Shown: positions 1-27,941 of the stretch, piece by piece | Layout: each line of letters begins with the position of its first letter | How positions within the stretch are numbered: position 1 is the first letter of the stretch | DNA from: Actinomycetota bacterium | GTDB lineage: Bacteria > Actinomycetota > Rubrobacteria > Rubrobacterales > Rubrobacteraceae | DNA: 45,193 nt | Direction of reading: 5' to 3' | NCBI GenBank assembly: GCA_902810695.1 | Contig: CADDYV010000027.1 | Coordinates: forward strand, 1-45,193 | Notes under the pieces: model-generated | The model's input: the letters and a program-made list of their open reading frames with translations, nothing else | Told to the model about the DNA's origin: nothing | Databases searched by the model: none | Position numbers and translations under genes: made by a program

Positions 1-1430
1 GCCGGTACCCGGACCTCCCTCGAAGACCACGGTGTAGCCCTGATCCTGCGGCAACAGCTCGAAAGTGTAGGATACGTGGGGAGGCTGCTTGATCCCGAGT
101 ACGCCTCTTTGCTGGCCGCCTATCTTCGTGTCGAGAACCTTTCTCCCTGAGCGGTCTTCGAGCACGATGCTCAGAGACCCGCTCTTCGAGCTGGTGGCGT
201 ACACGATCCGCAGCGGGTATGCCTGATCGTTCGGATTCCTTATCTTCCCGAAAGCGGGAACGGTTCTGGACACCTTGAGCGGTGGTTTCAGGGATGAGCA
301 GGGGTTTCCGACATCGAGGGCGCTTCCTCCGCACTGCTCCGCGGCGATCCGGTAGCTCTGGTTCTGGGTTTTGATCTCCAGAAAGTATGCTCCCGGCCCG
401 GAGCTGACCTTCAAGGTCCCGTCTTCTCCACCTTCGAACGTTTTGGCGGCAACTTTCTCGCCTACACTATCGTCAGAGTACCGTTGCTTGAAGACCGAGA
501 CCGTTGTGCTCCCGCTTCCGTCTTTTTCGGGGCCCGTCTTCACCAGCACGCTGAAAGATGGAGCCGAGACAAAAAATGGCTCGGTCCTGGTGCTTTTGTT
601 ATCCGCGATCTTCAGGAGTTGCAGAGGGTTTTTGCAACCGGGCAAGGCTATGGGGCCGTTGTCTTCGCCCGGACACGAGATGCCCGTCGAGTCCGTTACG
701 GTCACGGGGCCGTGTATCTGATCGTCGCTCCCGCCACTTATGTCCGCGAACTCTATGGGTCCTTTCCCGCCGGGGCCCGTAATGACGATCTGCTCGGCGT
801 TCGCCGTTATTTCGGAGCCGTTGCCGTCCTCGATCAGACCCTGCGTTCCATCTTCGTCCGCGACGGTAATGGTCGCGCCCTGCTGCACGGTGCAGCCGCT
901 GGCATCTATCGTCGCCCTGGTAACGAAACCTTTGTTATTCCTCTCCTGAGGAATAACGGGCTTGCCGACGATCGAGCCTTCTTCCTGTGGCTGCACGCTC
1001 TGCTGGGGCTGCTCCATCTGCCGCATCCGAGCGCCGAAGCTCCAATACAAACTCCCCGCCGCACCCTGGCTTCGAGATGAAGATTTGTTGGAGATGTCCT
1101 CTCCCACCGTGCTCTGCTGCTTACCTTCTCTTGCCGGCTTGCAGTGCTTTCCTGCAGGGCCGCCGGACTGGCGCTTGATACCGAGGTCGTATCCGTCCGG
1201 CCAGCGGAGTTTTGAAGCTCGCCTGCATCCTCGCTGTTCGCGGAACTCGTCGCTTCCTGTGTCGGGCTCGCGGTTTGGGCGCTGGTCGTCGCGCCATTCT
1301 GGCCCTCGCCCCCGTCAGCGGGCGCCCCATCCTGGGCCCACACCGGTACCGCGACCAGCACCGCCGCGACGAACGCAGCCAGCATCGCAAGCCCCGCAGC
1401 TATCCATTTTTCACAAAGACGCATACTCAT
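1..1430 (-). pseudogene. Secreted protein with a frame break, 3' end outside the window
   Basis: The 5' part starts at 1430 and encodes a signal peptide (hydrophobic residues about 11-30, then VWAQD) followed by a Ser/Thr/Gln/Glu-rich linker. That frame turns arginine-rich and implausible after about 1110-1140. A second frame, offset by one base, is open from 1314 to the left edge without a stop. It continues the low-complexity linker and then encodes a beta-rich secreted domain with paired cysteines (for example SGCTVQQGATITVADEDG and GISCPGED). A single missing base in the linker would join the two frames. I did not recognise the family. The C terminus lies outside the window. It may be a true pseudogene, a sequencing indel in a repetitive stretch, or phase variation. 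Confidence 0.6.
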
Positions 1431-1770
1431 CCCCCGAAACTACATTACGCATGATCATGCCGCCTCTCTTATTTATCGGCAAAGACGCGCAAAACTTTAG
1501 CGACCACGCAAGCTGGGATAGCAACTCGCATCGTAATATCGTTCCGTTTATATCAAGTATAACGGAAATACCTCTCCCCGGGCCACCCGAAGAGATATGA
1601 AAATTCCGGAGAGATAAGCTCGATTTTCCCGTGGCGGTTGAAAAATTCACGCCACACCTTCATAGGATGTATTAAGAATATAAGTGCATTTTGCAGTTAA
1701 TTTAGTATAGAGAAGATTTTGGAGAGTCTGGATCCGGGTACTTAGTAGTTTTGGATACGAAAGGAGCTGG
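1431..1770. other. AT-rich divergent intergenic region
   Basis: No convincing gene is present. The region separates the leftward secreted-protein gene from the rightward acetyltransferase gene and should hold both promoters. It contains the interrupted palindrome at 1542-1567 and a second imperfect hairpin at 1631-1655 (GTGGCG arm pairing with CGCCAC, inner TGAA/TTCA). Confidence 0.5.
1542..1567. promoter_or_regulatory. Interrupted palindrome, possible operator
   Basis: Arms TTCCGTT (1542-1548) and AACGGAA (1561-1567) are exact reverse complements separated by 12 bases. The inner bases TATA/TATA extend the symmetry if one base is bulged. It lies between two divergent genes, where a dimeric regulator could act. 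No regulator in the window can be tied to it. Confidence 0.35.
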
Positions 1771-4527
1771 ATGATGGGCACGGTCAGAAGTGGAGATCCT
1801 GCGCACGACGTGTTGAGGTACGAGCGGCAACCTCTGGATAAGATCTTCCGACCCGAGACGGTGGCTGTCATCGGGGCGACGGAGCGGGTGGGGAGTGTTG
1901 GGCGGACGCTGATGTGGAATTTGATCAGCAACCCCTTCGGGGGCACCGTCTTTCCGGTCAATCCCAACCGGAAGAATGTTCTGGGCATCCAGACCTATCC
2001 GAGCATCTCCGAAGTTCCCGCGAAGGTCGATCTGGCGGTGATCGTAGCTCCCGCTCCCGGCGTACCGGCCCTCATCCGGGAGTGCGTCGAGGCCGGGGTT
2101 GGCGGGGCCATAATTATCTCCGCCGGGTTCAAGGAGACGGGAGCCGCGGGCGCTGAGTTGGAGCAGCAGGTACTCGAAGAAGCCCGGCGCGGGCGTATGC
2201 GGATAGTAGGCCCCAACTGCCTCGGGGTAATGAACCCTAACACCGGGCTCAACGCCACCTTCGCCAAGGGTATGGCCCGACCAGGGAACGTCGGTCTCCT
2301 CAGCCAGAGCGGGGCGTTGATGACCGCTATTCTGGACCGCAGCTTCCGGGAGAACGTCGGGTTCTCTGCGTTCGTCTCCGTGGGCTCGATGATGGATGTG
2401 AGCTGGGGGGACCTCATCTACTACCTCGGCAACGATCCCCACACGCAGAGCATCGTCATCTACATGGAGAGCGTGGGCGACGCCCGCTCGTTCCTCTCGG
2501 CGGCCCGCGAGGTGGCGCTGACCAAGCCGATCATCGTCATCAAACCCGGCAGGACCGAGGCCGCTGGGAAAGCCGCCGCCTCTCACACCGGCTCTCTTAC
2601 CGGCTCCGACGAGGTGCTCGACGCCGCCTTCAATCGCAGCGGCGTCCTGCGCGTAAACGACATCTCCGAGCTGTTCTCCATGGCCGAAGTTCTCTCCAAG
2701 CAGCCGCGCCCCAAAGGCCCGAGGATGACGGTTGTAACCAACGCCGGGGGGCCGGGTGTGATCGCCACCGACGCGATTATCATGGGTGGCGGGGAGCTGA
2801 CCGGGCTCTCACCGGAGACGATGGACTCGCTGAACAAGATCCTGCCCTCCGCTTGGAGCCACGGCAACCCGATAGACATCCTCGGCGACGCCGACCCCGA
2901 CCGCTACGCCAAGGCGCTGGAGACGGCGGCGAGAGATCCCAACAGCGACGGCCTGCTCGTCATCCTCACGCCGCAAGACATGACCGACCCCACCGGCACC
3001 GCTCAGCGGCTCGTGCCGTACGCCAGGAGCACTGGCAAGCCCGTCCTGGCGAGCTGGATGGGTGGTTCCGACGTGGCAGCGGGGACTTCCATCCTAAACG
3101 GCGCGGGCATCCCGACCTTCGACTACCCGGACTCCGCCGCCGGCGCCTTCGACAACATGTGGCGCTACACCTACAACCTGCGCGGAATCTACGAGACGCC
3201 AGAGCTGGCGGTGGACACCGCGGGCGAGGACATAGACCGTAAGCGGGCAGATGATATCGTCCAGCACGTCCGCGAGCGGGAGCGCACGCTCCTCACCGAG
3301 TACGAGGCCAAGGAGCTGCTCGCCGCCTACGGCATCCCCATCGTCGAGACCCGCGTCGCCCGGAGCGCCGACGAAGCCGTGGAGTTTGCCGAGGATATCG
3401 GCTACCCCGTCGTCCTCAAGCTCAACTCCGAACTCATCACCCACAAAACAGATGTGGGCGGGGTGCACCTCAACCTCCAGGACGCCGAAGACGTGCGCAG
3501 GGCGTACACGAGCATGGAGAAGCACATCACGGAGAGCTTCAGCGAAGAGGCTTTCGGAGGCGCTTCGGTGCAGCAGATGATCCAGACCGGCGGCTACGAG
3601 ACCATCCTCGGGAGCAGCCTCGACCCCCAGTTCGGACCGGTTTTGCTGTTCGGTTCGGGCGGGGCGCTCGTTGAGGTGTACAAGGATCGGGCACTCGCCC
3701 TGCCGCCGCTCACCACGACGCTCGCGCGGCGTATGATCGAGCAGACCAGGATCTACGAGGCGTTCAAGGGCGTTCGCGGGCGGGCTCCGGTAGATGTGGC
3801 CGCTCTGGAGAGGCTTCTGGTGCGTTTCAGTCAGCTCGTGGTGGAGCAGCCCTGGATCAAGGAGCTGGATATAAACCCGCTGCTCGTCTCCCCCGAGCAG
3901 CAGATAGCACTCGACGCCCGCGTGGTCCTGCACGACCCCGACACCGCCGAGGAGGATCTCCCCGAGCCCGCCATCCGGCCCTACCCAACCCAGTACGTCT
4001 ACCACGAGGAGATGCGGGACGGCACCCCGATAACCATACGGCCCATCCGTCCCGAAGACGAGCCGCTGATGATCAAATTCCACGAATCCCTCTCCGAGGA
4101 GAGCGTCTACATGCGCTACTTCCACGCTATGAGGCTCAGCCAGCGCACCGCCCACGCGCGCCTGACGCGCATCTGCTTCATAGACTATGATCGCGAAATG
4201 GCCCTGGTCGCCGAGCGCAAGAACCCGGAGACGGGCGAGCGCGAGATCCTGGGCGTAGGCCGCCTGAGCAGACGCAGAACCGTACTCGATGAGGCTGAAT
4301 TCTCTGTTCTCATAAGCGACAGATTCCAGCGCCAGGGGCTCGGCACACTCCTGCTGGAGAAACTGCTTGAGGTCGGGCGTGAGGAAGGACTGCGGCGCAT
4401 CACAGCCGACATCCTCTTCGACAACCGGGCGATGCAGAAGATCAGCAAGAGACTCGGTTTCAGACTCCACCGCGACACCGAGGAGATGGTCATGAAAGCT
4501 GACCTCGATCTCTACCAGCCGGCATAG
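1771..4527 (+). CDS. Acyl-CoA synthetase-like / GNAT protein acetyltransferase (Pat type)
   Basis: A 918-residue fusion. Residues about 25-290 are the CoA-binding and succinyl-CoA-ligase-like domains of ADP-forming acyl-CoA synthetases, about 505-720 an ATP-grasp domain, and about 750-915 a GNAT acetyltransferase with acetyl-CoA loop RQGLGT near 853. Proteins of this build (Pat/YfiQ) acetylate lysines of metabolic enzymes such as acetyl-CoA synthetase, usually using the synthetase part as a regulatory domain. The motif SHTGSLTG at 271-278 keeps the histidine (H272) that is phosphorylated in active synthetases, so residual ligase activity cannot be excluded. The start is an ATG with GAAAGGAG eight bases upstream. 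A second ATG follows directly. The gene stands alone and converges on the next one. Confidence 0.85.
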
Positions 4528-4542
4528 AATCATCAAAAAGCA

Positions 4543-4565
4543 CCTCGCTGCCAGTAGCAGCGAGG
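4543..4565 (-). terminator. Hairpin terminator between convergent genes
   Basis: CCTCGCTGC and GCAGCGAGG form a perfect 9-bp stem with loop CAGTA. On the minus strand the stem is followed shortly by CTTTTTG, so it best serves the leftward small secreted protein. It could also slow transcription from the acetyltransferase gene. Confidence 0.7.
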
Positions 4566-4603
4566 CGCCTGGCTTTCAACCGAGAAGAGTTAACTCAAAA
4601 GAC

Positions 4604-4894
4604 CTACCAGGGCCACCACCAGATCCAAACCCCACCAAGACCCCCGTTGACCTGCACCTGATCCACACTGGCACTCTGGTCAACATAAGCAGAGTTGTCC
4701 ACCGCAGAGGCAGCACCGTTGGCGTTACCGGTCCCACCGACCGCGACCGCACTCTGGGTAACCATCGAAGCTTGAGTTTGGGAGGCATCCACCGCCTGGA
4801 TGCTGATGTTTCCGGCACTAGCCTGAGCAAATGCAGGAGAGGCAGCCACCAGAACCATCGCCAGCATCGCCGCCACAACCAACAACTTCTTCAT
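4604..4894 (-). CDS. Small exported protein with tryptophan-rich C terminus
   Basis: 96 residues. A clear signal peptide (MKKLLVVAAML, cleavage probably after AFA at about residue 23) leaves a mature protein of roughly 70 residues rich in Ala, Ser, Gln, Val and Asn. It ends in the aromatic motif VWIWWWPW. No cysteines and no known domain are visible. The start has the ribosome site GAAAGGAA. The composition suggests a surface or fibre-forming peptide, but that is inference. A hairpin terminator follows its stop. Confidence 0.65.
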   Translation of the reverse strand: MKKLLVVAAMLAMVLVAASPAFAQASAGNISIQAVDASQTQASMVTQSAVAVGGTGNANGAASAVDNSAYVDQSASVDQVQVNGGLGGVWIWWWPW

Positions 4895-5173
4895 TCACGT
4901 TCCTTTCGTCTTGGGGTCTTTCCACTTCACATTAAAGTAAGCTTCTTTACATATTTAGCCTCCTTTTTTACCTTTAATGAACTAATTATGTCTGCCCCGG
5001 CTATGGGTTACATCCTCCAAATGGACCATTTTTGCTTCTCAAAAGCAGGCTTGTCGCTACGTACTACGCTCCGGGAGGGAGGTTGGATCACCGGGCAGCA
5101 CATGAATAACATATGTCAAAATCGGATATATGATACGGTCGTCGAGAATCTCCGAAACCAACTGGAGGAGAGA

Positions 5174-5434
5174 GTGGGCATTATATCCTGGATCGTTTTT
5201 GGCCTGATCGCCGGTGTGATAGCCAAGTTGCTCATGCCTGGCCGGGATCCCGGAGGATGTATCGTTACAACACTACTCGGTATCATAGGCGCGTTCGTCG
5301 GCGGCTTCCTTTACCAGATCTTCACCGGTAAGACCTACATAGCCCAGTTCAACATCCCAAGCCTGATAGTCGCCGTCATCGGAGCAATAATCCTGCTCCT
5401 GATCTACCGCCTCCTGACCGGCCGCCGTATCTGA
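5174..5434 (+). CDS. GlsB/YeaQ/YmgE family stress-response membrane protein
   Basis: 86 residues, almost all hydrophobic, with three predicted membrane helices and the glycine-rich pattern of the transglycosylase-associated (GlsB/YeaQ) family: GLIAGVIAKLLMPG near the N terminus, then TTLLGIIGAFVGGFL. Such proteins are induced by envelope or general stress, and their biochemical role is unknown. The start is a GTG at 5174 preceded by GGAGGAG. Longer readings upstream lack family character. It is monocistronic. Confidence 0.85.
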   Translation: MGIISWIVFGLIAGVIAKLLMPGRDPGGCIVTTLLGIIGAFVGGFLYQIFTGKTYIAQFNIPSLIVAVIGAIILLLIYRLLTGRRI

Positions 5435-5515
5435 AAACTTCTCCCAAAAACCTACCCCGAAGCCCCACCTCTCCCCAACTACCTCCTAGCTGCAAACGAT
5501 TCTCATAAACAATAA

Positions 5516-5555
5516 CAAGAATTGTTCTTGATTTTTGTCCGAATACATGTAGAAT
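5516..5555 (+). promoter_or_regulatory. Promoter with overlapping palindrome upstream of the VIT-like gene
   Basis: TTGATT (5528-5533) and TAGAAT (5550-5555) are spaced by 16 bases and resemble a sigma-70-type promoter. The palindrome CAAGAA-TTG-TTCTTG (5516-5530) overlaps the -35 element, the position of a repressor site. With a metal transporter downstream, a metal-responsive regulator is a reasonable guess. The sequence is not a textbook Fur or IdeR box. Confidence 0.45.
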
Positions 5556-5594
5556 TCGGGTTGAGATGATTACTGTGGAGGATGAGATAGCCAG

Positions 5595-6119
5595 ATGTCG
5601 TCGCTGATGGAGCGGCTGGGGCTCGGGGGCCGGGAGATGACGGTCTCTGGGCACAGTAAAGATTTTGTTTTGAAAGTAGTGCAGCCGAGTCTGGTCGGGT
5701 TGATGGACGGCTCGGTTTCGACGCTGGCCCCTATCTTTGCGGCGGCGTTTGCGACGCACAGCGCGCACTCGACGTTCCTGATCGGGCTCGCGGCAGCGGT
5801 TGGAGCGGGGATCAGCATGGCCTTCTCGGAAGGGCTCTCGGATGACGGGTCGCTGACCGGGCGTGGAAATCCGATCATGCGGGGCGTCATCACGGGGATG
5901 GCGACGTTCTTCGGGGGAATCTTCCACACCCTGCCGTTTTTGATCCCGCACGTAACTCTCGCGCTGTACGTGGCGTTCGGGGTGGTCGGCGTGGAGCTCT
6001 TTACGATATCCCTGATCCGCTACCGCTACTTCAGGATGAGCTTCTGGATGAGCGCGCTACAGGTCGTGTTCGGCGGGGCGCTCGTCTTCGTATCGGGAAT
6101 CCTGATCGGGAGCGCCTGA
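5595..6119 (+). CDS. VIT1/CCC1-like metal transporter family protein
   Basis: 174 residues with about five membrane helices. The order of features resembles the VIT1/CCC1 iron/manganese transporter family: LMDGSVSTLAP in the first helix, a glycine-rich second helix with GISMAFSEGLSDDG, and GGIFHTLPFLIP in the third. Family members move ferrous iron or manganese across membranes. Here the protein would sit in the cytoplasmic membrane. The start is ATG 5595 with GGAGG about 12 bases upstream. The operator-like palindrome in the promoter fits metal-dependent control. It is somewhat shorter than typical members, and the substrate is not proven. Confidence 0.65.
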   Translation: MSSLMERLGLGGREMTVSGHSKDFVLKVVQPSLVGLMDGSVSTLAPIFAAAFATHSAHSTFLIGLAAAVGAGISMAFSEGLSDDGSLTGRGNPIMRGVITGMATFFGGIFHTLPFLIPHVTLALYVAFGVVGVELFTISLIRYRYFRMSFWMSALQVVFGGALVFVSGILIGSA

Positions 6120-18486: not shown

Positions 18487-19320
18487 TCACCTGGCCCTGC
18501 TGACTCGGGGCGCTCCGGGCTCCTCTTCCTCCGCTTCGACGGCCTCGACCTGCTCGCGTCCGCCGAGCATCAGGCTGGCAATGACAACTACGATCAAGAA
18601 CAGCGCGACGCCGATCACAACCCCTGGAGTGCCGGGATTCTTTGAAGAGAGGCCAAAGAACACACCGACCACCACTGCGCCTATCGTTCCGATCCAAACC
18701 AGGAGGTTCCCGATTCTCTGCAGCCTGGAGGCGGAGACTTCTTCGGGCTCCAGGATCTCCGTCCAGAGCAGCCCCCACCGCTTCACGCGAGGGTAGAAGG
18801 CATACAGCAGGATCGGACCTATAACGCCGCCTATTATGGCGTTGTTGAAGAATATGAGGGCGAAAAACACCTGGAACGGGTACAGCCCCAGCACGGCTAT
18901 CCACCAGGAAATTATGGCGGCACAGACCGCAGAGGCCAGGACGGTGACCGCGACGTAAGCGAGAAGCCTCTTGCCGGTATCCACGTTGGTCTCCATGTTC
19001 CGACCCCGGAAGAACGCTCCCCAGACCTTATACGGCAGCAGTCCCAGGAAAAAGTTGCCCACGAACCCGCCGATGCTCCCCAGCGTCAGGGTACCGAAGA
19101 AGTCTCCGATCAGGTTCCCTATCGCCGAGCCCCAGGCTCCCGCCGGCCCGAAGAGCAACCCGAAGACCACCGGGAACGCGTTGGCCGGCCGGATCTCGAT
19201 AAACCCCGGGACGATGGCGAAACCTTTAAACGGGATCAAAACCGCCGCGTAGATGGCCGCACTCAAAGCCACGAGCACCACCATCTGGGTGTGCCGCCAC
19301 ATCGTAAAGATCTCTTTCAC
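18487..19320 (-). CDS. ECF transporter substrate-binding S component
   Basis: 277 residues. N-terminal six-helix S-component core with a characteristic segment IRPANAFPVVFGLLFGP then GAWGSAIGNLIGDFFG, which resembles ECF S proteins (QueT-like or unclassified). Two further hydrophobic helices (about 205-255) and an acidic tail extend it beyond the usual 170-200 residues. S components capture a vitamin-like or nucleoside-like substrate, and this one cannot be assigned. The start is GTG 19320 with GGAAGGAGAGAGG upstream. It lies between ecfT and the SAH-hydrolase-like gene in one operon. Confidence 0.82.
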   Translation of the reverse strand: MKEIFTMWRHTQMVVLVALSAAIYAAVLIPFKGFAIVPGFIEIRPANAFPVVFGLLFGPAGAWGSAIGNLIGDFFGTLTLGSIGGFVGNFFLGLLPYKVWGAFFRGRNMETNVDTGKRLLAYVAVTVLASAVCAAIISWWIAVLGLYPFQVFFALIFFNNAIIGGVIGPILLYAFYPRVKRWGLLWTEILEPEEVSASRLQRIGNLLVWIGTIGAVVVGVFFGLSSKNPGTPGVVIGVALFLIVVVIASLMLGGREQVEAVEAEEEEPGAPRVSRAR

Positions 19321-19373
19321 AACCTCTCTCCTTCCTATAGCCAGCGACTTACACTAACGAACCGGGAAACTCT

Positions 19374-20111
19374 CTATCCTCCGAATCCTATTGCCCGCAG
19401 CACGAAAGCTGCTACCAGAAGCGCTACCAACACCGCCAGGACCACGCCGTCCCGCCAGCTTATGGTGGGCTGGAGGTAGAACGTGCGTTTGGGGCTGGCT
19501 CCGAAACCTTTGGACTCCAGGGCCATAGAGAAAACGTTGGTCGAGCGTATGGTCGAGACGAAGACCGGCACCAGTAGCGGGACGTACTTGCGGATGCGCT
19601 CGATGAGGTTGCCGGAGTCAAGGTCGAGCCCCCGCGAGCGCTGAGCCTGGCCGATGGTAAGCCCCGTAGAGGCTATGGTGGGGACCAACCTCAGGGCCGT
19701 GGAGACCGCGAAGCCGAAGCGATAAGGGATGCCCAGCCGGACCAGACCGATCGCCACCTCCTCGTTGCGCGTGGTGGAGAGGAAGATCATACCCGCGATA
19801 ATGGTAATGTCTATCCGTATGGCGATGCTGATCCCGTATATGACTCCTCCTAAATTCCCGCCGCCGAATATGAACCATATGATGATGGTAAAGATGGCGA
19901 TCACTATAAGGATAAATCGGATGCGCCGGAGGTTGGAGAGCACTTTTGCCAGGTAACCGAAGAAGACCACCAGCGCGAGTATGACCAGCTCGTAGACCGG
20001 GTTCAAAAACACGAACGCCAGAACGAAAGTAGCGATCAGCAGGAGCATCTTGGTGCGCGGGTCGAGCCGGTGAACCCAGGTATTGCGATCCAGATATAGC
20101 GACGGGTCCAT
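19374..20111 (-). CDS. ecfT: ECF transporter transmembrane coupling protein EcfT
   Basis: 245 residues with about five to six helices. The two cytoplasmic coupling motifs that grip the ATPases are visible: AQRSRGLDL near residue 155-163 and ALESKGFGA near 207-215 (the usual Ala-Arg-Gly is Ser-Lys-Gly in the second). EcfT links the S component to the ATPase pair. Its ATG overlaps the stop of the fused ATPase gene by one base (TGATG), which shows translational coupling. Confidence 0.92.
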   Translation of the reverse strand: MDPSLYLDRNTWVHRLDPRTKMLLLIATFVLAFVFLNPVYELVILALVVFFGYLAKVLSNLRRIRFILIVIAIFTIIIWFIFGGGNLGGVIYGISIAIRIDITIIAGMIFLSTTRNEEVAIGLVRLGIPYRFGFAVSTALRLVPTIASTGLTIGQAQRSRGLDLDSGNLIERIRKYVPLLVPVFVSTIRSTNVFSMALESKGFGASPKRTFYLQPTISWRDGVVLAVLVALLVAAFVLRAIGFGG

Positions 20112-21811
20112 CAGCCCTCCCCGGTTATCTGCAACATCTCCTCCACCGAAACCACCGGATACCCAAGAGCGTTCCCGAACGAGACTATGTGCGGCGGCCT
20201 GAGGGCGAGATCTCTGAGCTCCTCTTCATGAGAGAAGACCTCGCGCACGGTCCCGGAGAGGGCCACCCGCCCGTCTTTTATCACCACGGCGCGGTGGGCG
20301 TACTCGGCGACGACCCACATGGCGTGGGTTACGATGATGATCGTGGATCCCGACTCGTTGAGGCGGCGGACCAGCTCCATCATTCTTTGCTGCTCGGCGT
20401 AGTCGAGTCCCGTCGTCGGCTCGTCCAGGATCAGGACCTCGGGACGGACCGCCAGCACGCTCGCCACCGCAACCCGCTGACGCTCGCCCTTGGTCATGCC
20501 GAACGGGTCCTCCTCCTCGCGCCCTTCGAGCCCCACCGCCGCAAGCGCCTCCTTCACCCTCTCTTCGATCTCTGTCTCTCCCAGGCCCCGTATCCTCGGC
20601 CCGAACGATACCTCATCGGCGACGGTGTCGGAGAAGATCTGATGGTCCGGATTCTGGAAGACGTACCCGACCCGCTCTCCGAGTCGGCGTATTCCCTGCT
20701 TGACGGTCTCTACCCCGCCCACCCGGACGGAGCCCTCCGTCGGCTCCAGAAGCCCGTTGAAGTGCTTGACGAGCGTGGTCTTCCCTGAGCCGTTCTGTCC
20801 CACGATGGCGAGAAATTCTCCCTGGTGGACGGTCAGGTCCACGTCTTCGAGCGCCACCACGCCATTCGGGTAGCGGTGCGTCAGGTTCTCGACCTCGATC
20901 AGGGGCTCCCCATAATCCTTCTCGCGCGCCTCATCCGCCGCCACCAGTTTCTGGTGGCGCTCTGCATCCACGCGCCACCCGCGCCGCTTGAACTCCTCCA
21001 GACCTTCCTGCGGGGTCAGGGGTCGCTCCTCTATCGCTATCCCGCGCTCTTTAAAGAACCGGGCCACCGGAAGCGGCATGACGCGGGACTCCTCCAGAAG
21101 CTCCACGTCCCGCAAGACCTCCCGCGCCGGGCGGTCGGCGGCTATCTTTCCATCCCGCAGGACGACGATGCGGTCGGCGTCGAGTGTCTCCTCGGTCTCG
21201 TGCTCGACGATAACGAGAGTAACATCCTCCCGCTCTTCGAGCTCCTCGGCGATCTCGAACACTCCCATCTTGCCTATCGGGTCGAGGTCGGTTGTCGGCT
21301 CGTCCAGGCACAGTATGCGCGGCTCTATCGCAAGCACCGAGGCGATGGCGAGCCGCTGCTTCTGGCCCCCCGAAAGAGTAGCCGGCTGTCTGTTCTCGAA
21401 CCCTTCCAGCCGTACCTGACCCAGCACCTCCTTGACGCGCCGGACCATCTCATCGTGCTCCACGGCGAAATTCTCCGGTCCGAAGGCAACCTCGAGAGCC
21501 ACGTTGGTCGAGAAGAGCTGGGCCTCGAAGTCCTGGAACACCAGCCCGACCTCGCGCGCGAACTCCCCTACCCTGCCCTCGCGGGTCGAGCGGCCCCGAA
21601 TCCTCACCTCGCCACCCATCCGCCCCCGGAAGAAGTGCGGGATGAGCCCGTTCAGCGAGACGCACAAAGTGCTCTTGCCCGCCCCGGAGTGGCCCATGAC
21701 GACCACGAACTCCCCTTCGGCCACCTCCAGGCTGACCCCATCCAACGCGGGCTCTCTCTGCCCCCGGTAACGGTAGGTCAGGTCCTCGATCCTGATTACG
21801 GGTTCTGCCAT
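20111..21811 (-). CDS. Fused double ECF ATPase (EcfA-EcfA')
   Basis: 566 residues containing two ABC domains in one chain. First half: Walker A GHSGAGKST, signature LSGGQKQR, Walker B ILCLDEPTTDLD, switch His in EHETEE. Second half: Walker A GQNGSGKTT, degenerate signature MTKGERQR, Walker B VLILDEPTTGLD, switch His in THAMW. It powers the adjacent EcfT/S pair. The start is ATG 21811. The frame stays open for 75 codons upstream but those residues have no ABC character, so I leave them out. It is the first gene of the four-gene minus-strand operon. The region 21812-21981 separates it from the divergent HNH gene and shows no riboswitch I recognise. Confidence 0.93.
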   Translation of the reverse strand: MAEPVIRIEDLTYRYRGQREPALDGVSLEVAEGEFVVVMGHSGAGKSTLCVSLNGLIPHFFRGRMGGEVRIRGRSTREGRVGEFAREVGLVFQDFEAQLFSTNVALEVAFGPENFAVEHDEMVRRVKEVLGQVRLEGFENRQPATLSGGQKQRLAIASVLAIEPRILCLDEPTTDLDPIGKMGVFEIAEELEEREDVTLVIVEHETEETLDADRIVVLRDGKIAADRPAREVLRDVELLEESRVMPLPVARFFKERGIAIEERPLTPQEGLEEFKRRGWRVDAERHQKLVAADEAREKDYGEPLIEVENLTHRYPNGVVALEDVDLTVHQGEFLAIVGQNGSGKTTLVKHFNGLLEPTEGSVRVGGVETVKQGIRRLGERVGYVFQNPDHQIFSDTVADEVSFGPRIRGLGETEIEERVKEALAAVGLEGREEEDPFGMTKGERQRVAVASVLAVRPEVLILDEPTTGLDYAEQQRMMELVRRLNESGSTIIIVTHAMWVVAEYAHRAVVIKDGRVALSGTVREVFSHEEELRDLALRPPHIVSFGNALGYPVVSVEEMLQITGEG

Positions 21812-21981
21812 CTTACAAACCTTCACACCCCACGAAGGGTATTCTAGCAGGGGCACAGCGTTGTCTTCGCGATCTAAAGTTGTGCGGCAAAACTTACGAT
21901 TATTCTGGTGATACTCAGGATGCAGAGTCTCATGCATAGCAGTCAAGTAGTCCACCAGGACTCGAAAGGAGAGATGCCAGG

Positions 21982-22530
21982 ATGCCGCCGAAAAATGTAC
22001 GCACGGTACGACAACTGATCTACTGGGAATACGCAAAGCTGATCGCGGGAAGAGCCGTCGGAGACAGCAAAAATTGGCGCTTCGTTATGTACACCTTCAA
22101 GAAGCTGGATGGCGGACAGATGAAGCCTTCGGAGATCCTGCGCGAGAACAAACTTCTCTATAAAGAGCGCGAAGGTTGCGTTTACTGCCAGGACCAACGA
22201 GCAGATCTGCAGTGGGATCATCTGATCCCCAAAAGCCGTGGCGGCTCGGAGACGATGGATAACATGGTGCCCGCGTGCCGAACCTGTAACGCCTCCAAAG
22301 GAGCACTCGATCTTTTCGAGTGGTACGGAGAGAGGAGAGATGATATCCCGAGGCTCGTGCTTGGCAAGTACCTGAAGCTAATCTTCGACTACCACAAGCA
22401 AATGGGCACGCTCGACGACGCGGATATCAACGCAGACGGCAAACTGGACATACTGGATCTCGGTGCTGTCTTTCCACCCGCACGGCGTAAGAACGCAGAA
22501 CCACCCCCGGTACAATCCCTGAGCGCATAA
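21982..22530 (+). CDS. HNH endonuclease with EF-hand-like C terminus
   Basis: 182 residues. The central HNH module has zinc ligands C66 and C69 (CVYC) and C99 and C102 (CRTC), and the catalytic DHLIPKSRGG with His80. Such modules cut DNA, and relatives serve in restriction, mobile elements and repair. The tail carries DINADGKLDILD at about residues 148-159, which fits the calcium loop DxNxDGxxxxxD seen in EF-hands and dockerins. The ATG follows GAAAGGAGAG. It is divergent from the ECF operon and ends before a large hairpin. No methylase or recombinase partner is nearby. Confidence 0.85.
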   Translation: MPPKNVRTVRQLIYWEYAKLIAGRAVGDSKNWRFVMYTFKKLDGGQMKPSEILRENKLLYKEREGCVYCQDQRADLQWDHLIPKSRGGSETMDNMVPACRTCNASKGALDLFEWYGERRDDIPRLVLGKYLKLIFDYHKQMGTLDDADINADGKLDILDLGAVFPPARRKNAEPPPVQSLSA

Positions 22531-22570
22531 GAGTATTAAATGGAGTTCAGCCGGGACCGCTCAGGTATGG

Positions 22571-22609
22571 CAACCGCCACCAGGCAACCGCTTTGCCTGG
22601 TGGCGGTTG
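22571..22609. terminator. Perfect 17-bp hairpin between convergent genes
   Basis: CAACCGCCACCAGGCAA and its exact reverse complement flank the five-base loop CCGCT. It lies between the HNH gene stop and the lipoprotein stop. Neither side carries a U tract, so it may act as a bidirectional or Rho-assisted terminator, or protect 3' ends. Confidence 0.6.
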
Positions 22610-22618
22610 AGCGCAACG

Positions 22619-23596
22619 TTAGCGCCCGGCGCAATTCTGGCTAATCTTGGCGCTGTAGATCCTCCACCCGAATTTGCCGAAAGGCGGTACGTCGGATTTG
22701 CGGAGGATGTAGCTCCCGCAGAAAGTCTGCTTGGTCTGGTTATTGTTCGTCGCGACAATGACGACCGGAACGTTGGCATAGAAGGATCCCGCAGCACCCT
22801 GCACCCGGGGCTTGCCTACCTTGACAGCGTCATGCTCGGTCGTCGCGAAGCCCTGCTCGAACCGCGCAAAAGTCTGCTTGCTCGCCTTCCCGAGATCCTC
22901 CCAGAACGTATAGGCCCGCGCGAAATGGCGGCGGTTGATCTCCAGGTAGTACGATTGCACGAGCCGGCGCGGGGCAGAAAGTTCGGTGGGAGGCAGCTTG
23001 CCATTACTTCTGGCGATGCTGGCGTTTGAGAGCCGCCACCCCTGTGCAGTATGGCGCACGGTGTAGCTCCCACGATATTGCTGCACCCCCTGGGAAGCGC
23101 CATTACTCCGATTCACTACGGAGATAAGCCTTACCGGCACCTTGACCGGGGCTGTGTTCTGCGCGCTTGATGGCCCGATCAGGACGCTCACCTGAACGGT
23201 GTTCGCGTAGCCCTGCTTGAACTGCTTGAAAGTCTGACCGCTGGCCGCCCCATTCCCCGCCCATGTGTCGTAGGCTTTTTTGTATTCCCTCTGGTTGATG
23301 TCGCCGTAGTAGTTCAAAACCGTCTGTACGGCGGCCTCCCAATTCGTCTCACTCTGTGACGGCTGTATCGCAGCAGCAGAGGATGTCTGCCGCGTTGTAC
23401 CACCCTGCTGCATCATGGCAGCCAGAGTTCTAGCCGAGCGCACGCTTGTGGAAGGCGCCGTGCCCGCCGGACTCGTCGCCTGCGTAGCAGATCCCGTGTG
23501 AGAGGTGGTCTGCGCGTGAGCTGTTGACGCCCGAGAGCCGCTGCAGCCGAACAGAGCCACAGCCAGAATTACCAGGAGGACCGCTAACTTTTTCAT
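22619..23596 (-). CDS. Lipoprotein with two NTF2-like repeats
   Basis: 325 residues. A lipobox (ALFGC, Cys at 18) follows the signal peptide, so the mature protein is membrane-anchored outside the cell. A Ser/Thr/Ala linker leads to two related domains: the first opens with TVLNYYGDINQREYKKAYDTW (about 91-111, continuing FKQFKQGYANT), the second with VQSYYLEINRRHFARAYTFW (about 213-232, continuing FARFEQGFATT). The pattern recalls NTF2-like or DUF4878-type lipoproteins of actinobacteria. The function is unknown. It is monocistronic, and 23597-23746 upstream holds its promoter. Confidence 0.8.
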   Translation of the reverse strand: MKKLAVLLVILAVALFGCSGSRASTAHAQTTSHTGSATQATSPAGTAPSTSVRSARTLAAMMQQGGTTRQTSSAAAIQPSQSETNWEAAVQTVLNYYGDINQREYKKAYDTWAGNGAASGQTFKQFKQGYANTVQVSVLIGPSSAQNTAPVKVPVRLISVVNRSNGASQGVQQYRGSYTVRHTAQGWRLSNASIARSNGKLPPTELSAPRRLVQSYYLEINRRHFARAYTFWEDLGKASKQTFARFEQGFATTEHDAVKVGKPRVQGAAGSFYANVPVVIVATNNNQTKQTFCGSYILRKSDVPPFGKFGWRIYSAKISQNCAGR

Positions 23597-23746
23597 CTAC
23601 CAACATCTCCTTGCCGTATCCCCCTCTATTTTGCTTCTACTCCCTGGATGCTACGCTACTAAAGTAACTAGGTGGTTACAGGAAGATAACGGTTTTGCAA
23701 CAATTCTCACCTGAATTTTCGAGCGAATATTTGATGCGGAAGGGGT

Positions 23747-25027
23747 CTATTCGAGTGATGGTAAATCTCTTCCATTTCCCACGAGAAGTTCGAGTACCTG
23801 CCCGGACTTTATGCGCGCTGCGAAGTGATCTCCGCCGAGGTGGTAGGCGAGGTATCGCCAGTCGGGGTCTTCGAGGATAAGGATGTCGGCCCTGTAGCCG
23901 GGGGCGAGGCGTCCCGTCTCTCCGTCCAGACCGAGCACGTGGGCGGCGTTGGCGGTCGCGGCGCACAACGCCTGGGCCGGGGAGAGCCCGAGCCGGGTGC
24001 ACCCGAGGTTCATCGCTATCGGAAGCGACGAGCAGAAGGAGCTTCCCGGATTGAAGTCCGTCGCCAGGGCGACGATGGCCCCTTCTTCGATCAGGGTGCG
24101 GGCAGGCGGGTTGGGCAGCCCCAGGAAGAGCCCGCACGCCGGGAGCAGCACCGCCGCGACGTTGCTCCTCGCCAGAAGGCGCGCTCCCTGCTCGCCGGTG
24201 GCTTCGAGATGGTCCACGCTGCGGGCGCCGAGCTCTACGGCGAGCGGGATGCCGCCGCGCTCGGAGAACTGGTCCGCGTGGAGCCGCAGCGCGAGCCCGT
24301 ACTCCCGACAGGCTTCGAGGTAACGCCTGGACTCGCCCACCTCTAAGGAGCCCCTTTCCAGAAAAACATCCGCCGCCTCCGCGAGATGTGCGGCCCGCGA
24401 CAGGACGTCCCGGATCACGAACTCCACGTACTCCTCCGCACTCCCGAACTCCGGGGGAAGCGTGTGCGCCCCGAGGAAAGTGGGGTGAAGGTCCACGGGC
24501 TGGCTATCATTCGCGGCATGAATGGCCCGGAGCATCTTCAGTTCGGTCTCCAGATCCAGGCCGTACCCGGACTTCACCTCGGCAGTCATCGTGCCATGAT
24601 GCAGCATCCATCCGAGGTGTTTCACAAGAGCGGACTTCAGATCCCCCTCGCTTCCTCTGCGCGTGGCCTCGACGGTCGAGAGGATGCCACCGCCGGAGGC
24701 GTGGATCTCCTCGTAGCTGGCCCCTTGAGAGCGCAACTCGAACTCCCCGGCTCGATCGCCGAGGAAAGCTGCGTGGGTATGGCAGTCCACCAGCCCCGGA
24801 ACCGCGGCCCTGCCTCTCCCGTCCACCGTCTCGCAATCTGAGCCTGGCGGAAAGTCGCGCAGCACTTCCTCTGGTGGCCCGACCGCCGTTATGCGCCCGC
24901 CGGAGATGGCGATTGAGGCTGGAGAGTGAATCTCCAGTCGCCCGAACTCCCGGCCCCGCTGCGGTCCGTTTCCCGCAGGCGAGACGCCGGCATCCAGGTC
25001 GTGTATCAGCAACGTTATCTCGCTCAT
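23747..25027 (-). CDS. hutI: Imidazolonepropionase HutI
   Basis: 426 residues, amidohydrolase superfamily. It opens the imidazolone ring to N-formimino-L-glutamate, the third step of histidine degradation. Metal ligands His83 and His85 lie in DCHTHAAF. EVKSGYGLDLETELKML, HPTFLGAH, LHADQFSE and ATDFNPG are family blocks. The start is ATG 25027, which overlaps the hutF stop (ATGA) and has GGGGGAGAG upstream. It is the last gene of the hut operon. Confidence 0.96.
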   Translation of the reverse strand: MSEITLLIHDLDAGVSPAGNGPQRGREFGRLEIHSPASIAISGGRITAVGPPEEVLRDFPPGSDCETVDGRGRAAVPGLVDCHTHAAFLGDRAGEFELRSQGASYEEIHASGGGILSTVEATRRGSEGDLKSALVKHLGWMLHHGTMTAEVKSGYGLDLETELKMLRAIHAANDSQPVDLHPTFLGAHTLPPEFGSAEEYVEFVIRDVLSRAAHLAEAADVFLERGSLEVGESRRYLEACREYGLALRLHADQFSERGGIPLAVELGARSVDHLEATGEQGARLLARSNVAAVLLPACGLFLGLPNPPARTLIEEGAIVALATDFNPGSSFCSSLPIAMNLGCTRLGLSPAQALCAATANAAHVLGLDGETGRLAPGYRADILILEDPDWRYLAYHLGGDHFAARIKSGQVLELLVGNGRDLPSLE

Positions 25028-26283
25028 GTTCTCTCCCCCGGATAGACGCGGCGGCCCGCCACCCACGCCCCAGACACCACCGCGCTTCCGGCCCCGAAGA
25101 CCAGCGCAGCGGGCAGGTTATCGGGCTCCACGTCGGCGAGCTGCGGATGAGTAAGGTCTATCTCTACGAAGTCCGCTGGAGCACCGGCTTCGATCTTCTC
25201 CCGCTGCCAGCCGGCGAGCAGCAGCCAGGGGGTCGGTGAATCGCTTCCTTTTTGTACCAGCACGTTTCTGCCGCCGGAGAGGCGGCGGGCGCTGGTCTCT
25301 ATCTCCCGCAACTCCTCGAAGGGGTCCACCCTCACGTGCGAGTCGGAGCCGATAGAGAGCTTTATCCCATGCCGCAGTATGCTCTCCGCCGGGAGAAATC
25401 CGTCGCCGAGGTTGCCTTCGGTGGTCGGGCAGGCGCACACCGCCGAACCGTGCTCTGCGAGGAGATTCAACTCCTCCTCGCTGGCGTGGGTGGCGTGCAC
25501 GATGGTCGTGTTTGGGCCGAGAAAGCTGGCTTCGGCCAGAAGCTCTATCGGGCGCACGCCGTACTCGGCCTTGCACTCCTCGATCTCGCGCGGCTGCTCG
25601 TCGGCGTGGATGTGCAGCGGGAGGCGGCGGGAGCGCGCGTAGCGCCCGATCTCCTGCAGCCACCCTTTCGGGACGGCCCGCACGCTGTGTGCTGCGATCC
25701 CGACCTCCAGCAGCGGGTGCTCCCCGGCCCACTCCGCGAGCGCATCAACCCGCTCCAGAAAAGTGCGCACCGAGGGATCCCGGAAACGCGCGATGCCGCC
25801 TCTCGCGTAGGCAACCGGCAACAGTAAGAGCCGGATGCCAGCATTCTCCGCAGCCTGTGCAACGGCTTTCGAGAGCGTATTCGGGTCGCCGTAAGGCGTT
25901 CCGTCGGGCTGGTGGTGTACGTAGTGGAATTCGGTTACGTTCGTGTAACCGGCGGAGAGCATCTCCCGAAAGCATCCTTCGGAGATGCGCCGAATAGAGT
26001 CTGGGTCCAGGCTCCCGGCGAGGGAGTACATCCGCTCCCGCCAGGTCCAGAAGTCGTCGTGGGGATGCTCCGGGTCCAGGCGCTCCACCTGGCCGCGCAA
26101 ACCTCTCTGGAAAGCGTGGCTGTGGTCGTTGACGAACCCCGGCATCAAGGCACGTCCGGGTAGACGCTCGCCATCTGTCGCGGGACCGACTTCGACTACT
26201 CTCCCGTCCTCGACTGTGATGCCCACACCGAAGCGAGCGCCACGGGAATCGAGGATGAGATCTGGCAGGAGTGTGCGTCTCAA
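25024..26283 (-). CDS. hutF: Formimidoylglutamate deiminase HutF
   Basis: 419 residues, amidohydrolase superfamily. It deiminates N-formimino-L-glutamate to N-formyl-L-glutamate and ammonia, the route used when HutG-type formimidoylglutamase is absent. Visible ligands: His54 and His56 ([13 protein letters not shown]), His226 in LHIHADEQ with Glu229, His263/His266 (VHATH) and Asp314 (IGSDSH). The start is a TTG at 26283 that overlaps the hutU stop (TTGA). Longer readings are arginine-rich out-of-frame hutU sequence. No formylglutamate deformylase (hutG) follows in this window. Confidence 0.94.
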
Positions 26284-27941
26284 CGATCGAGCATGGGCAT
26301 CTGGATGCCGAATCGCCGGGCGGCTTCGCGAGCCTTCTCGTATCCGGCGTCGGCATGGCGTACGACCCCGATGCCCGGATCGTTGGTGAGGACGCGTTCG
26401 ATGCGAATTGCGCCTTCCTCGGTGCCGTCGGCGACGACCTGGGCCCCGGCGTGGATGGACTTGCCGATCCCCACCCCGCCGCCGTGGTGTACCGCCACCC
26501 AACTCGCCCCGCTCGCGGTGTTCAGGAGGGCGTTCAGGATCGGCCAGTCGGCTATGGCGTCGGAGCCATCCTTCATCGCCTCGGTCTCCCGGTAGGGAGA
26601 GGCGACGCTGCCCGAGTCCAGGTGATCCCGCCCGATCACGATAGGCGCGGAGATATCGCCGCTCGCCACGAGCTCGTTGAACCGCAGGCCGGTCTTGCTG
26701 CGCTCGCCGTAGCCGAGCCAGCAGATGCGCGCCGGTAGCCCCTGGAAGGCCACCTTCTCGCGGGCCTGGGAGATCCAGCGCCCCAGACGCTCGTCCTCCG
26801 GGAAGAGATCCAGGATGGCCTCATCGGTGGCGGCGATGTCTTCTGCCTCGCCCGATAGCGCAGCCCACCGGAACGGCCCCTTTCCCTCGCAGAACAGCGG
26901 TCTTATGTAGGCGGGGACGAAGCCGGGGTAGGAGAAAGCCTTCTCGAAACCGCCGAGCTTCGCCTCGCCGCGCAGGTTGTTGCCGTAATCGAAGACTTCT
27001 GCGCCGCGCTCCATAAAGCCGACCATCGCCGCGCAGTGGCGGGCCATCGAGACGCGGGCCTCGGACACGTACCGCTCCGGCTCCCCTTCCCGCAACTCCA
27101 CCGCTTCATCCAACGTATACCCGGCGGGGATGTAGCCGCCGAGGGGATCGTGGGCCGAAGTCTGGTCGGTAACGACATCGGGCTCGAAGCCCCGCTCCAG
27201 GAGTGCCGGGAGTATGTCGGCGGCGTTGCCGGGGATGCCGATAGAGACGGCCTCGCCGTTGCGCTTCGCCTCTTCCGCTCTCTCTATGGCGTCATCGAGG
27301 TCGTCTGCGCGCTCGTCGAGGTAGCGGCTTCGTAGGCGGCGTTCGATGCGCTCGGGGTCCACTTCGACGCAGAGGGCGATGCCTTCGTTCATGGTGATCG
27401 CCAGCGGCTGGGCGCCTCCCATTCCCCCGAGCCCGGCGGTAAGGCACACCCGACCCTTGAGCGTCCCGCCGAAACGCTGCTCAGCGATGGCGGCGAAGGT
27501 CTCGTAGGTCCCCTGCAGGATTCCCTGGCTGCCTATGTAGATCCAGGACCCCGCAGTCATCTGGCCGTACATGGTGAGTCCGGCCTTCTCCAGCTCCCTG
27601 AAGGTCTCCCAGTTAGCCCAATCCGGGACCAGTAGCGAGTTCGCGATGAGAACCCGGGGGCTGAAGGGGTGCGTCCTGAACACCGCGACGGGCCTGCCGG
27701 ACTGCACCAGCAGGGTCTCGTCATGGCCGAGAGACTGTAGCGCCGACACTATCGCCCAGAAGCTCTCCCAGTCCCGGGCGGCCCGGCCAGTCCCTCCGTA
27801 GACCACCAGGTCCTCGGGGCGCTCGGCCACTTCGGGGTCGAGGTTGTTCATGAGCATCCTCAGAGCAGCCTCCTGCTGCCAGCCCTTGCACGAAAGCTCC
27901 GTCCCGCGCGGCGCGCGGATGGTGGCCGCCTTGTCCGTCAT
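26280..27941 (-). CDS. hutU: Urocanate hydratase HutU
   Basis: 553 residues, full length. It converts urocanate to imidazolonepropionate using tightly bound NAD as electrophile. The NAD-binding block [12 protein letters not shown], the N-terminal [17 protein letters not shown], and the active-site segments [13 protein letters not shown] and [12 protein letters not shown] are clearly kept. It lies 54 bases downstream of hutH. Its stop is shared with the start of hutF. Confidence 0.97.

Follow-up and report, generated by a model that had tools for sequence, protein, structure and literature searches.

A stand-alone HNH nuclease with a candidate calcium-type loop near its C terminus

The window, by which we mean the whole 45,193-nucleotide stretch analyzed here, carries a gene for a 182-amino-acid HNH endonuclease (21982..22530, + strand, ATG start) with a dockerin/EF-hand-type loop, DINADGKLDILD, near its C terminus. 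As an earlier note on this DNA had claimed, the product is an HNH protein with a calcium-binding-like loop: the open reading frame is matched by Pfam HNH and HNH_5 above their cut-offs, and the loop lies at residues 148 to 159 (22423..22458, + strand), where motif, alignment, and a tail profile all place it. We posit, with somewhat better than even confidence, that the product is a stand-alone intracellular enzyme of the HNH(N) type, a DNA endonuclease or nickase whose loop serves as a structural Ca2+-type site. In this model, the loop would bind Ca2+ (or Mg2+ or Mn2+) via D148, N150, D152, the carbonyl of residue 154, and D159, the bound metal would pin the C-terminal segment and thereby stabilize the fold or a dimer, and the HNH core would nick DNA like its closest solved relative.

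The gene is preceded by a ribosome-binding-site-like sequence, AAAGGAGAG, which by inspection lies 8 nt upstream of the ATG (21965..21973, + strand), and the protein opens with MPPKNV, MPPKxV being common to its homologues in the alignment. An N-terminal helical module follows (TVRQLIYWEYAKLIAGRAVG..., residues 9 to 62; 22006..22167, + strand), which is conserved across the family in the alignment and has no Pfam domain; AlphaFold2 models helices at residues 9 to 21, 29 to 43, and 49 to 56 with low-to-medium confidence. The zinc-ribbon HNH(N) catalytic domain occupies residues 64 to 108 (22171..22305, + strand), as placed by Pfam and by alignment with 4h9d, and its key residues are Cys66/69/99/102, Asp79-His80, Asn94, and Asn103. 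Both Pfam families match residues 66 to 108 above the gathering cut-off (HNH_5, E 1.8e-11; HNH, E 4.1e-11), with scores against the curated cut-offs of 43.3 versus 21.4 bits for PF01844 and 44.2 versus 27.5 bits for PF14279, and C66, C69, N94, C99, and C102 are invariant in all 22 alignment rows. Beyond the core lies a C-terminal helix with a near-invariant KYLK (residues 122 to 141; 22345..22404, + strand; helix 124 to 141 in the model), in which K132 is invariant and Y130 and L131 nearly so across the 22 rows. The segment that leaves the loop starts with LGAVFP (residues 160 to 165; 22459..22476, + strand), LGAxF being common among the loop-bearing rows. Given that a hydrophobic N-terminal signal stretch is absent by eye, the protein is probably intracellular.

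Among solved structures, the nearest in sequence is 4h9d, Gmet_0936 of Geobacter metallireducens (phmmer E 1.1e-7), which PMC3765158 describes as an enzyme that binds Zn, nicks DNA weakly in a Mn2+-dependent manner, and prefers AP-site DNA, with zinc ligands Cys38/41/73/76 and an active site of Asp53-His54, Asn68, and Asn77. These sites align with C66/C69/C99/C102, D79-H80, N94, and N103 of the window protein; that is, the HNH active-site D-H, N, and N/H residues and the Cys4 zinc site are all present. Like Gmet_0936, the window protein is small and stand-alone, with a Cys4 zinc ribbon and a D-H/N/N active site. Unlike that 112-residue chain, however, it carries an N-terminal module and a C-terminal loop that stay unmatched, the match covering only residues 63 to 115. 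The HNH core also resembles those of IscB and Cas9 (NCBIfam IscB, E 3e-13; PDB profile matches), but the score lies far below the NCBIfam cut-off (49.6 versus 175 bits), and the 182-residue protein has no RuvC match in Pfam. PADLOC matches center on the HNH core as well (best E 5.8e-7).

AlphaFold2 was given window sequences and loci from the related-locus search, 3 alignment rows and then 9, which cover a minority of the family, and on these shallow alignments the mean pLDDT was 45.4 and 58.9, respectively. Blocks of the HNH part reach 75 to 85 in the second model, which has helices at 124 to 141 and, in its part below pLDDT 50, a short one at 158 to 161; the loop and tail lie below 50 in both models (residues 141 to 182 and 144 to 182). 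Foldseek on the second model found nothing that reached E 0.001; its best match was again 4h9d (3.6e-3), which covers only the HNH core.

Is the loop more than a chance likeness? The motif D.[DN].DG.....[DE] occurs once among the stop-to-stop open reading frames of at least 60 amino acids in the window, namely in the HNH frame, and a looser form of it was met in none of 28 other HNH frames from fetched loci, which agrees with the suggestion that such a tail is unusual on HNH proteins. Relatives (compared loci carry L numbers) were drawn from related-locus, plasmid, and genome searches and kept if the match extended past the HNH core; HNH-core-only matches (about 60 bits or less with profile A1) were dropped and form part of the background set. 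The family comprises 24 rows, 22 aligned plus the later-found L119 and L122, not counting a fragment of the N-terminal part in L003 or the two additional tail copies that L002 carries; one member, L018 (62 bits, about 30% identity), is doubtful. Loop positions 1, 3, 5, and 12 are intact in 12 of the 24, down to 34% identity: the window and L006 from the window's phylum, L001 from a Deltaproteobacteria record, L002 from a Bacillota record, and L060 to L064, L066, L068, and L122 from the phylum of an Omnitrophota record. Homologues with both parts, which the earlier note had proposed to search for, thus exist, but they make up only part of the family; in the other 12 rows the loop is degenerate (L067, L069, and L119), its place is taken by a Cys-rich tail (L046, L047, and L065), or neither is present (L017, L018, and L048 to L051). 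Of the two later-found members, then, only L122 has kept the loop. Because its positions are kept in 12 of 24 members and are absent from all 28 other HNH frames, the loop is more than chance, and because the other 12 members lack an intact one, it is dispensable for the fold in general.

Within the loop, the candidate ligand positions are D1, N3, D5, D9, and D12. Across the 11 aligned loop rows, Asp never varies at positions 1, 5, and 12, position 3 accepts N or D, and position 9 accepts D, N, S, or T; positions 2, 4, 7, 10, and 11 vary, and the Gly at position 6 is missing in three rows (L061, L063, and L066). The EF-hand ligand pattern of D, N/D, D, and D at positions 1, 3, 5, and 12 is found in all 11; position 12 of an EF-hand loop is usually Glu and is Asp here. 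The loop is under purifying selection. In L002, extra copies of the 3' end of the gene lie at 3360-3648 and 5636-5827, and the three tail copies differ pairwise over 45 codons by 13 to 16 synonymous versus 5 to 6 amino-acid-changing differences, the sole change inside the 12-residue loop being V/L at position 7. Between L062 and L064, the tail has the lowest dN of three segments (dN 0.029, dS 0.94), as against dN 0.096 in the HNH part, where dS is high (1.9) and probably saturated.

With which known calcium-binding family does the loop belong? A profile of the tail only (11 rows) gave 47 matches to PDB sequences at E 10 or better, led by 5lxv_B (E 0.0017; a dockerin chain, judged by the two loops in its alignment), 2y3n_B (cellulosomal GH48; 0.0061), and 5k39_B (dockerin module; 0.015), below which come more cellulase chains and, for the most part, EF-hand proteins. 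These matches, together with the ligand pattern, agree with the claim that the loop fits the EF-hand/dockerin type; since so short a motif finds its own kind, they show the pattern rather than binding. Pfam EF-hand_5 scores the window tail below its cut-off (13.5 versus 25.9 bits), and Dockerin_1 matches 1 of 11 single tails at all, also below its cut-off (best E 0.062). Dockerins of type I consist of two tandem loop-helix repeats; the window HNH frame has one loop motif and no second. The loop is a single half, neither a true dockerin nor a scored EF-hand.

Two rival explanations bear on these comparisons. The earlier note had raised a tether to a partner, that is, a loop acting as half a dockerin that docks the nuclease onto a cohesin-like protein. 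Dockerin-type chains do indeed head the PDB matches of the tail profile, and the window loop, D-x-N-x-D-G-x-L-D-x-x-D-L, is like those of dockerin type I (5k39_B and 2y3n_B). The window protein differs from these in having one loop, in being a presumably intracellular nuclease, and in the lack of any Cohesin family match in the 11 loop-bearing genomes, none of which has a Dockerin_1 match above cut-off either. With only one of a dockerin's two halves present and no cohesin match in any of the 11 genomes, the tether is not supported, and we regard docking as highly improbable. The second rival is a conserved acidic turn, free of metal, that would cap the C-terminal helix or touch the HNH core, its likeness to calcium loops being convergent. 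We consider this possible but not probable: many members lack the loop, Gly6 is not strict, and the Pfam scores are weak, but positions 1, 3, 5, and 12 are held as positions 2, 4, 7, 10, and 11 vary, which is the pattern of a metal site, and position 9 is always one of the same four residues.

The Excalibur domain, with its pattern DxDxDGxxCE, is not matched either, there being no Cys in the window loop. Another comparison is with the Dx[DN]xDG class, whose motif has one or more acidic (or amide) ligands farther along the chain and for which stabilizing and folding roles are known (Rigden et al. 2011, PMC3123361). The window loop is like this class in that D159 comes after 5 intervening residues, a spacing found in Table 1 of that paper, and unlike it as described in that the words nuclease and HNH are absent from the paper's main text. 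Literature searches combining HNH with dockerin, EF-hand, Excalibur, or calcium found no description of an HNH nuclease family with such a loop; the protein would extend the known range of folds with a Dx[DN]xDG loop to a nuclease. Separately, a viral-contig protein at L091:1866-2240 has an EF-hand-type stretch, DINRDGKFTVEDIDAVF, with no HNH motif seen.

What occupies the loop's place in relatives is the main reason for preferring a structural site. In L065, L046, and L047, a CxxCx5C and a later CxC follow GT(L/M/I) just before LESV, where the loop would otherwise lie, and this Cys-rich tail could hold Zn or an Fe-S cluster. On a tree of the 22 rows with tail columns removed, in which stars are missing from most deep branches and the branches of four rows are long, these three form one group (100/99) beside loop-bearing L002 (91/92). 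The loop label needs 6 changes on this tree, as do the four tail states taken together, and none of 200 shuffles reached so low a number. We infer that the ancestor of the core group had the loop, which was later lost several times and replaced once. Because two metal-binding-type motifs occupy the same place, we favor a structural site rather than a switch or a tether, and we speculate that the Cys cluster of the sister clade may do the same stabilizing job. The family offers a natural case in which some proteins fill one position with a calcium-type loop and their close relatives fill it with a cysteine-rich stretch.

Could the loop nonetheless sense Ca2+ entry upon membrane damage, infection, or stress, and toggle the nuclease? 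Such a calcium switch would accord with the conserved loop positions, with the several relatives that lie beside toxin-antitoxin, TIR, DUF1016, or ORF6N genes, and with the joint loss of catalytic His and loop in L069 and L119, but it sits poorly with a single loop that has no paired EF-hand, with a sister clade in which a Cys-rich tail replaces the loop and 6 more members with neither, and with the lack of a consistent partner gene among the compared loci. We think it rather unlikely. In L069 and L119, R replaces the HNH histidine and the loop is degenerate, probably through one event, as the two sequences look alike; L067 is a counter-example that kept the histidine and lost the loop. That the loop gates an intracellular HNH nuclease, with the sister clade having swapped the gate for a Cys-rich (Zn/Fe-S) cluster so that two different metals would act at one regulatory position, is improbable, and if it were true that metal controls cutting, calcium would be linked to DNA cleavage inside bacteria. 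Free Ca2+ is low in the bacterial cytoplasm, a point that counts against the preferred structural reading as well.

The gene is sparsely distributed, occurring in 1 of 39 genomes of the window's class (E 1e-15 or better), and family members occur in 7 of 395 genomes (phylum of L001), 1 of 398 (phylum of L002), and 10 of 285 (phylum of L003; 12 of 364 with another profile in a second search). It behaves like an accessory gene that sits in variable islands and moves horizontally. Neighbors in relatives, often toxin-antitoxin or defense genes, include a CAP12-type TIR protein (L001), MazE/ParE-like genes (L002), ORF6N (L077 and L003), DUF1016-SNase (L071), PIN and MazE-like genes (L072), and, by annotation, a restriction endonuclease (L017) and ParD/ParE (L018). 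In two genomes, a DNA-damage role is possible: L073 (6802-9264) and L075 (5517-7982) share the order UPF0047-HNH-Ogg, with Ogg, of the 8-oxoguanine glycosylase type, beside the HNH gene, a carbamoyl-phosphate-synthase-like gene preceding, and an HhH-GPD glycosylase gene nearby (Pfam support covers the L073 genes and the Ogg of L075). Such repair neighbors were seen in none of the other compared loci. Given that Gmet_0936 prefers AP-site DNA, a damage-directed nickase is a fair lead for these two genomes.

The window copy is flanked by an ABC transporter gene and an open reading frame without a Pfam match, so that its own surroundings say little; judged by neighboring frames and Pfam, no repair or defense gene directly adjoins it. 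A free-standing homing endonuclease, with the loop incidental, would suit the HNH type, the patchy spread, a G+C content of 0.54 versus 0.62 for the window, and the gene fragments and additional tails found in L002 and L003. We find this improbable, as no group I or II intron was matched in Rfam at E 0.5 or better within 19000-25000 of the window, no close relative appeared in phage or viral collections, and no insertion site could be mapped: the neighboring ABC ATPase gene has 12 matches in 11 relatives (74 to 81% identity), and the DNA upstream of it in those relatives does not align with window DNA. A phage origin was likewise rejected, no phage record covering 80% of the query and viral contigs giving HNH-core or loop-only matches or none.

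Several smaller observations concern the surrounding DNA. A perfect 17-nt inverted repeat with a 5-nt loop, terminator-like, lies at 22571..22609 between the HNH gene and a convergent lipoprotein-like frame (22619-23596, - strand). The latter has no Pfam match and contains a 55-nt DNA repeat (75%), 360 nt apart, which suggests two related halves. Farther on, at 23747-27941 (- strand), imidazolonepropionase-like, second amidohydrolase, and urocanase genes stand in a row, a cluster of the histidine-degradation type. In L002, the region 1300-6000 holds three diverged HNH 3' ends among MazE/ParE-like, GH10-like, and Doc-like genes, with an 86-nt direct repeat (94%) flanking the intact HNH gene, and it looks like a hot spot of gene turnover.
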